DNA of 64,000 nucleotides from the NCBI RefSeq assembly GCF_003696315.1, contig NZ_RFFN01000002.1:1-64000 (forward strand), read 5' to 3'. Of the stretch, positions 6,743 to 7,708 are shown piece by piece. This stretch comes from Pseudomonas songnenensis (GTDB taxonomy: Bacteria > Pseudomonadota > Gammaproteobacteria > Pseudomonadales > Pseudomonadaceae). The notes beneath the pieces are model-generated. The model was not told the origin of the DNA and ran no database searches. It saw only the letters and a program-made list of their open reading frames with translations. Numbering within the stretch: the stretch's first letter is position 1; each line of letters starts with the position of its first letter. The position numbers and the translations under genes were made by a program.

Positions 6743-7708
6743 TCATGCCGGTTGCTTCAGGCGCAGCGGGACGATACGGCCGGTGCTGTAGGCGCTGGGC
6801 AGCAGGGCCGCCGCCCGTTCGATGACGGTTTCCGGTGCGATCGGCAGCGCCTCGCTGTCGAGGCTGACCAGGCTGATGCCGGCCTTGATCGACACGAACC
6901 CTTCGCTGGTCTTCAGCGCCCTGAGGTTCAGGCCTTCATGCAGCCGCTTGAAGCTGCTCGGCGAGCAACCTTTGGCGTCGTTGACCAGGGCCAGCAGGCC
7001 GAACTGGCTTTCGCTGATGCGGCAGACGACGTCCAGTGGTCGAACGAGCTGCTGCAGGCGGATGGCAACGGCGCAGAGGATTTCGGCGAAAACGGTTTCG
7101 CCATAGCGCTCTCGCAGCGCATCGGCTTCTGCCAGGCCGATCTGCAGGTAATACAGTGCCGAGCCGCGGTTTTCCATCTGCCGCAGACTGGCCGCCATGC
7201 GCTGCTGCAGATACCGCCCATTGCCCAGGCCGGTCAGCGGGTCCTGCAGGCTGTGCTGTTCGAGCGTGGCGACGTTCTCGGCCAGTTGGTGGTTTTCCTG
7301 CTTGAGCCGCTGCAACGAGCCACAGAGACGGTCGGCGGCGAAGATGCGCGGCAGCAATTGCTCGTTCATCGCCGATTTGCTGATGAAATCGTCGACGCCG
7401 TGGTCGAAGGCCTGGCCTAGCGCATTCTCGCTGTCGCGACCGGTGAGCAGGATGACGTAGCTGTAATGACCGCTCAGGGCATCGCGCTGGCGAATCTGGC
7501 CGGTCAGTTCGAGGCCGTCCATCTCCGGCATCAGCCAATCTGCCAGCAGGACATGAGCCGGGCGTTGCGCGTGCTGCATCAGCGCATCGGCGGCACTGCT
7601 GGCGAAGCGAATATCCTGGTAGCCGGCCTTGCTCAGCGCGCGGCCGATCATGACGCTGGAAAACTTGGCGTCATCCACTACGAGGATGCTCAGAAGGGGG
7701 TTGGGCAT
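6743..7708 (-). CDS. Response regulator with degenerate GGDEF domain (likely c-di-GMP binding)
   Basis: A 321-residue REC-GGDEF protein, positional equivalent of P. aeruginosa PA4396. The receiver domain (residues 7-125) has the acidic pair VVDD, the phospho-acceptor D57 (LLADWLM) and the lysine of FISKS. The GGDEF domain starts with an intact DPLTGLGN at about 156. The active site, normally GGDEF, reads SESQF (232-236), so diguanylate cyclase activity should be lost. The inhibitory-site RxxD is kept as RPLD (223-226) at exactly the canonical spacing, which suggests a c-di-GMP receptor. The start is placed at MPNPLL; an ATG 30 codons upstream lacks domain sequence. The gene is divergent from yajQ and cotranscribed with the PanE-like gene; the nearby histidine kinase may phosphorylate it. 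Confidence 0.9.

Follow-up and report, generated by a model that had tools for sequence, protein, structure and literature searches.

What does a response regulator do with a GGDEF domain that has lost its active site and retained the RxxD motif of the inhibitory site (I-site)? The question is raised by a minus-strand gene in a 64,000-nucleotide stretch of Pseudomonas songnenensis DNA (the window, to which all coordinates refer). A sequence-only reading of this gene had proposed that SESQF replaces GGDEF, that RPLD is kept at canonical spacing, that the protein acts as a c-di-GMP receptor like PelD, and that it may carry a receiver (REC) domain. The features of the protein that enter into the argument are as follows.

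6743..7708, minus strand: response regulator of 321 aa, REC plus pseudo-GGDEF (ORF translation, Pfam, homology, gene order)
7343..7687, minus strand: receiver domain, residues 8-122 (PF00072; predicted fold fits REC-GGDEF structures)
7538..7540, minus strand: D57, predicted phospho-acceptor
7253..7378, minus strand: continuous helix, residues 111-152, from the REC end into the linker (AlphaFold2 model)
6776..7249, minus strand: catalytically degenerate GGDEF domain, residues 154-311 (PF00990; residue-by-residue test)
7166..7168, minus strand: R181, predicted Arg of the secondary I-site, where helix alpha1 ends
7136..7138, minus strand: G191 where PleD has its metal-binding Asp (D327)
7031..7042, minus strand: RPLD (R223-D226), predicted primary I-site RxxD
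7001..7015, minus strand: SESQF (S232-F236) replacing GG(D/E)EF
6944..6946, minus strand: R255, predicted third primary I-site residue (PleD R390)

Start codon, domains and predicted fold

By Pfam the regulator consists of REC and GGDEF domains alone, with no GAF or membrane part found: Response_reg (PF00072) matched residues 8-122 at 72.7 bits (cut-off 30.2) and GGDEF (PF00990) matched residues 154-303 at 54.5 bits (cut-off 23.8). An in-frame ATG further upstream gives a longer ORF of 351 aa (6743-7798). We rejected this start, and take the 321-aa start to be correct, because M1 of the shorter version was present in every one of an initial 117 distinct orthologues, and P2 and N3 in 111 and 105 of them, respectively.

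Conservation is otherwise given for a main set of 166 distinct Pseudomonadales sequences, with pairwise identity down to 22%, or for a wider set of 198 that adds 32 more distant gammaproteobacterial relatives. By this measure the receiver domain that had been proposed is real, with D12, D13, D57 and K111 of its phosphorylation site present in 166/166 orthologues and T89 in 165/166. An AlphaFold2 model of the regulator had a mean pLDDT of 92 and a pTM of 0.64, the latter of which makes the placement of REC and GGDEF relative to each other unreliable; the best PDB matches to the predicted fold were PleD with c-di-GMP (Z 23.8) and WspR (Z 22.7). The modelled helix at residues 111-152 is as expected for a REC-helix-GGDEF dimer.

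Catalytic residues and I-site of the GGDEF domain

SESQF does stand in place of GGDEF, and no GG[D/E]EF-like motif occurred at this site in any of the 166 orthologues. We scored the catalytic positions against the published list of PleD residues (PMC12943098), and observed a joint loss of the equivalents of D327, F331, K332, N335 and D344 that the earlier reading had overlooked; the regulator has G191, A195, D196, R199 and A208, respectively, at these positions. Among the orthologues, D327 and N335 were each kept in 1 sequence, K332 and D344 in 10 and E371 in 11, and the fold residue F372 was kept in 160/166. Since nearly all of the catalytic residues are lost while fold residues such as F372 are kept, the GGDEF domain is expected, as judged from its sequence, to fold and to be no cyclase. 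In many Pseudomonas orthologues the former GGDEF columns hold a DD.HF motif (D232 in 113/166, H235 in 98/166), which is conserved enough to raise the question of a role of its own.

Whereas the GGDEF positions drift freely, the R and D of RxxD are fixed. R223-D226 lies 5 residues ahead of SESQF, which is the spacing seen in PleD RAIDLPCRYGGEEF, and the conservation check named in the earlier reading, when run, found R223 and D226 invariant in 166/166 orthologues and in 198/198 sequences when the distant relatives were included. Exactly 5 residues of the 158-residue domain were invariant among the 166 orthologues, namely R181, R223, P224, D226 and R255, so that the motif is kept family-wide together with companion arginines that had not been noticed before. 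In a profile alignment, R223, D226 and R255 pair with PleD R359, D362 and R390 (the last within AER(390)IR of PleD), which form the PleD inhibitory site together with R313 of the other domain (PMC7288161, PMC12943098). The probability of these 3 PleD-mapped residues falling among 5 random positions of 158 is 1.6e-5. In the same alignment, R181 falls one position beyond DgcR R163 and four positions beyond PleD R313; according to the DgcR authors, R163 and R313 do the same job without sequence homology (PMC8041772). Strict homology of R181 with PleD R313 is not established. With 3 residues mapping to the PleD site and R181 in the predicted role of R313/R163, the whole four-residue I-site appears, from these alignments, to be kept in the regulator family, along with one proline within it. 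Codon choice varied at synonymous level, all six Arg triplets being used at R223 among the orthologues, so that the invariance results from selection on the protein.

We also considered that RxxD might be conserved out of structural necessity. As a control we used the 35 alignable GGDEF domains, taken as stretches, from the same genome (one further domain, which could not be aligned, was excluded). RxxD was present in 25 of these and absent from 10; the motif is thus not needed for the GGDEF fold, and structural necessity is weakened as a cause of its conservation. The 4 degenerate GGDEF domains picked out in this genome were all without RxxD.

Gammaproteobacterial relatives from beyond the order included 12 with an intact catalytic site, GGEEF cyclases among them, and the same R181, R223, D226 and R255, and 20 with a lost or damaged catalytic site, all of which kept R181, R223 and D226 (R255 in 19). 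Six relatives beyond the order showed partly decayed catalytic sites (such as TSGEEF, TGSDEF and GGNEF) next to an intact I-site, and are possibly intermediate states. A tree of the regulator and its relatives, computed after removal of the columns of the catalytic site and the I-site and with PopA left out, implied that catalysis changed between the intact and the lost state at least 5 times, although it is unrooted, its bootstrap is not settled and many of its forks are open. We take the direction to be loss of catalysis because active GGDEF cyclases are the common form. The family offers an allosteric site that is held fixed while catalysis is lost, with intact and half-decayed cyclase relatives at hand for comparison.

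Neighbouring genes, distribution and the kinase question

7865..8344, plus strand: yajQ (DUF520; PF04461), divergent neighbour of the regulator
5827..6738, minus strand: panE/apbA ketopantoate reductase (PF02558/PF08546), next downstream, 4 bp past the regulator stop
3766..5781, minus strand: HAMP-PAS-HisKA-HATPase histidine kinase, putative PA4398 orthologue (Pfam), two genes downstream of the regulator

The genome is of Stutzerimonas type, the best named hits to the regulator being from Stutzerimonas. Homology and gene order lead us to regard the regulator as orthologous to P. aeruginosa PA4396. The copy in P. aeruginosa PA7 is 65% identical, and the order yajQ, regulator, panE, kinase, cobalamin adenosyltransferase is shared; in matching the locus to PA4396 we assumed the PAO1 numbering of panE. 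The regulator gene was single-copy in 54/56 genomes of the genus and in 104/148 genomes of the family Pseudomonadaceae; across the order Pseudomonadales, 55/195 genomes gave a match at E up to 1e-25, and related proteins occur in further gammaproteobacterial groups. PA4395 is YajQ (PMC4199771), and PMC5812489 lists a PA4398-PA4396 pairing.

This pairing does not appear to be obligate. Among the 148 family genomes, 69 had both the nearby kinase and the regulator, 35 the regulator only, 36 the kinase only and 8 neither, so that the kinase is missing from 35/104 regulator-bearing genomes. Its presence without the regulator in 36 genomes indicates that the kinase probably has other partners; in several regulator-less genomes panE directly adjoins yajQ and the kinase is still present. 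That the regulator receives kinase input is something we infer, and the adjacent kinase may serve it where both exist, as a candidate partner.

On its downstream side, the regulator was followed by panE in 100/100 loci tested. On the other side, yajQ was its divergent neighbour in 100/100 Pseudomonadaceae loci and in 9/34 loci further out. The YajQ homologue PA4395 of P. aeruginosa has been reported as a c-di-GMP binder (PMC4199771), and a functional tie between the regulator and YajQ is only a lead. We rejected the adjacency as functional proof, since much of the local gene order is conserved anyway and the arrangement falls to 9/34 further out.

Predicted receptor function and its alternatives

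The proposal that the regulator is a c-di-GMP receptor is supported by the invariance of RxxD across a family in which the catalytic residues are lost. We consider it highly probable that the protein is an I-site receptor gated by phosphorylation, similar to PopA, with c-di-GMP binding and phosphorylation both predicted from conserved residues. In the predicted mechanism, the receiver domain and the long helix would mediate dimerisation of the regulator. Dimeric c-di-GMP would bridge the two GGDEF domains, held by R223, D226 and R255 on one side and by R181 on the other, and so lock the pair. Phosphorylation at D57 would alter the dimer and so tune its affinity for c-di-GMP or the contacts open to the locked form. 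The output would pass through another protein, since the regulator has no DNA-binding or enzymatic domain. A fuller version makes the proteins an order-wide receptor family that arose independently of PopA and acts as a coincidence detector: the dimer would be set by phosphorylation and locked by dimeric c-di-GMP, and YajQ would be its partner or target; in this complete form the idea is unlikely, though not far-fetched.

The comparison with PelD held in one respect: PelD, too, has a dead GGDEF domain with an RxxD receptor site. It is not, however, the nearest model. PelD of P. aeruginosa is a TM-GAF-dGGDEF protein with 3 TM segments, whereas PopA of Caulobacter is REC-REC-dGGDEF (PMC10333796) and shares the type of input; moreover, the regulator has a REC domain and neighbours (yajQ, panE, the kinase and cobalamin adenosyltransferase) that include no pel genes. 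With PopA the regulator has in common a receiver input, a dead catalytic site and an RxxD-based c-di-GMP receptor role (PMC10333796, PMC12564702), which in the regulator is predicted. It differs from PopA in having one REC domain rather than two and in its position among gammaproteobacterial relatives, some of them GGEEF cyclases, in a tree from which PopA was absent. The Campylobacter jejuni response regulator CbrR also has a variant active site and binds c-di-GMP through its I-site (PMC8779298), but it has two REC domains, KGRD for RxxD and the motif SAEKI. PleD, WspR and DgcR, REC-GGDEF cyclases with an I-site, resemble the regulator in fold, receiver site and primary I-site residues; the regulator departs from such cyclases in its lost catalytic residues, with SESQF, G191, R199 and A208 at the positions concerned. 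PA4396 has the same architecture and the same place between yajQ and panE, and we saw no difference in kind. Receptors of this kind are already known in PopA, PelD and CbrR, and the regulator family appears to add to them a distinct representative that is old, widely distributed and fed by a receiver domain.

Other functions for the conserved residues have to be weighed. The arginines and D226 might form a protein-protein or dimer interface to which no nucleotide binds, as the I-site residues lie on the surface (judged by their role in PleD) and degenerate GGDEF domains in other proteins have acquired new functions other than that of a cyclase (PMC10333796). Against this, the invariant set coincides with the four-residue ligand site of PleD and DgcR, besides which only P224 is invariant in the domain, and active GGEEF relatives share the same residues, where they presumably serve product inhibition; we regard a purely scaffolding role as improbable. 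The DD.HF motif, which replaces the catalytic pocket in many orthologues, could carry a new role, such that a different nucleotide is bound there, or at the kept site in the form of, for example, another cyclic dinucleotide. Yet very few orthologues retain N335 or D344 of the GTP site, and dozens of other GGDEF domains in the genome are available as sources of c-di-GMP, so that a different ligand seems to us quite improbable.

The label diguanylate cyclase is often attached to the orthologue in P. aeruginosa, and PMC13128677 (2026) so names PA4396, reporting increased expression in biofilm maturation. In E. coli, C. jejuni CbrR, whose motif is SAEKI, yielded low c-di-GMP (PMC8779298), which might encourage such a view. 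In the regulator, however, the metal ligands D327 and E370 are lost together with K332, N335 and D344, and PMC11889090 terms PA4396 a degenerated DGC; retained cyclase activity is accordingly the least credible of these alternatives, and a very improbable one. PA4396 belongs to the GGDEF proteins of PAO1, in which 17 proteins with GGDEF alone were counted, and its deletion led to slightly higher attachment (PMC9355167); an effect of its overexpression is cited in PMC5812489. The accessible parts of the open-access literature gave mutant, expression and overexpression data for PA4396, and we found there no biochemical test or measurement of c-di-GMP binding. Should PA4396 prove to be a receptor, mutant phenotypes and shifts in its expression that have been ascribed to altered c-di-GMP synthesis would need to be re-read, and a widely conserved receptor with phosphorylation input would become testable in a standard model.

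Two further proteins with GGDEF domains were noted in the window. The one at 31204-33264 (minus strand) is a GGDEF-EAL protein with GGDQF, no RxxD and an EAL domain scoring 266 bits; the one at 39921-41114 (plus strand) has GGEEF and RASD and, by these motifs, is likely an active cyclase. A 975-aa open frame at 50749-53676 (plus strand) matches its family, that of LysR regulators, over only about the last 300 residues, and the real start codon probably lies well inside the frame.
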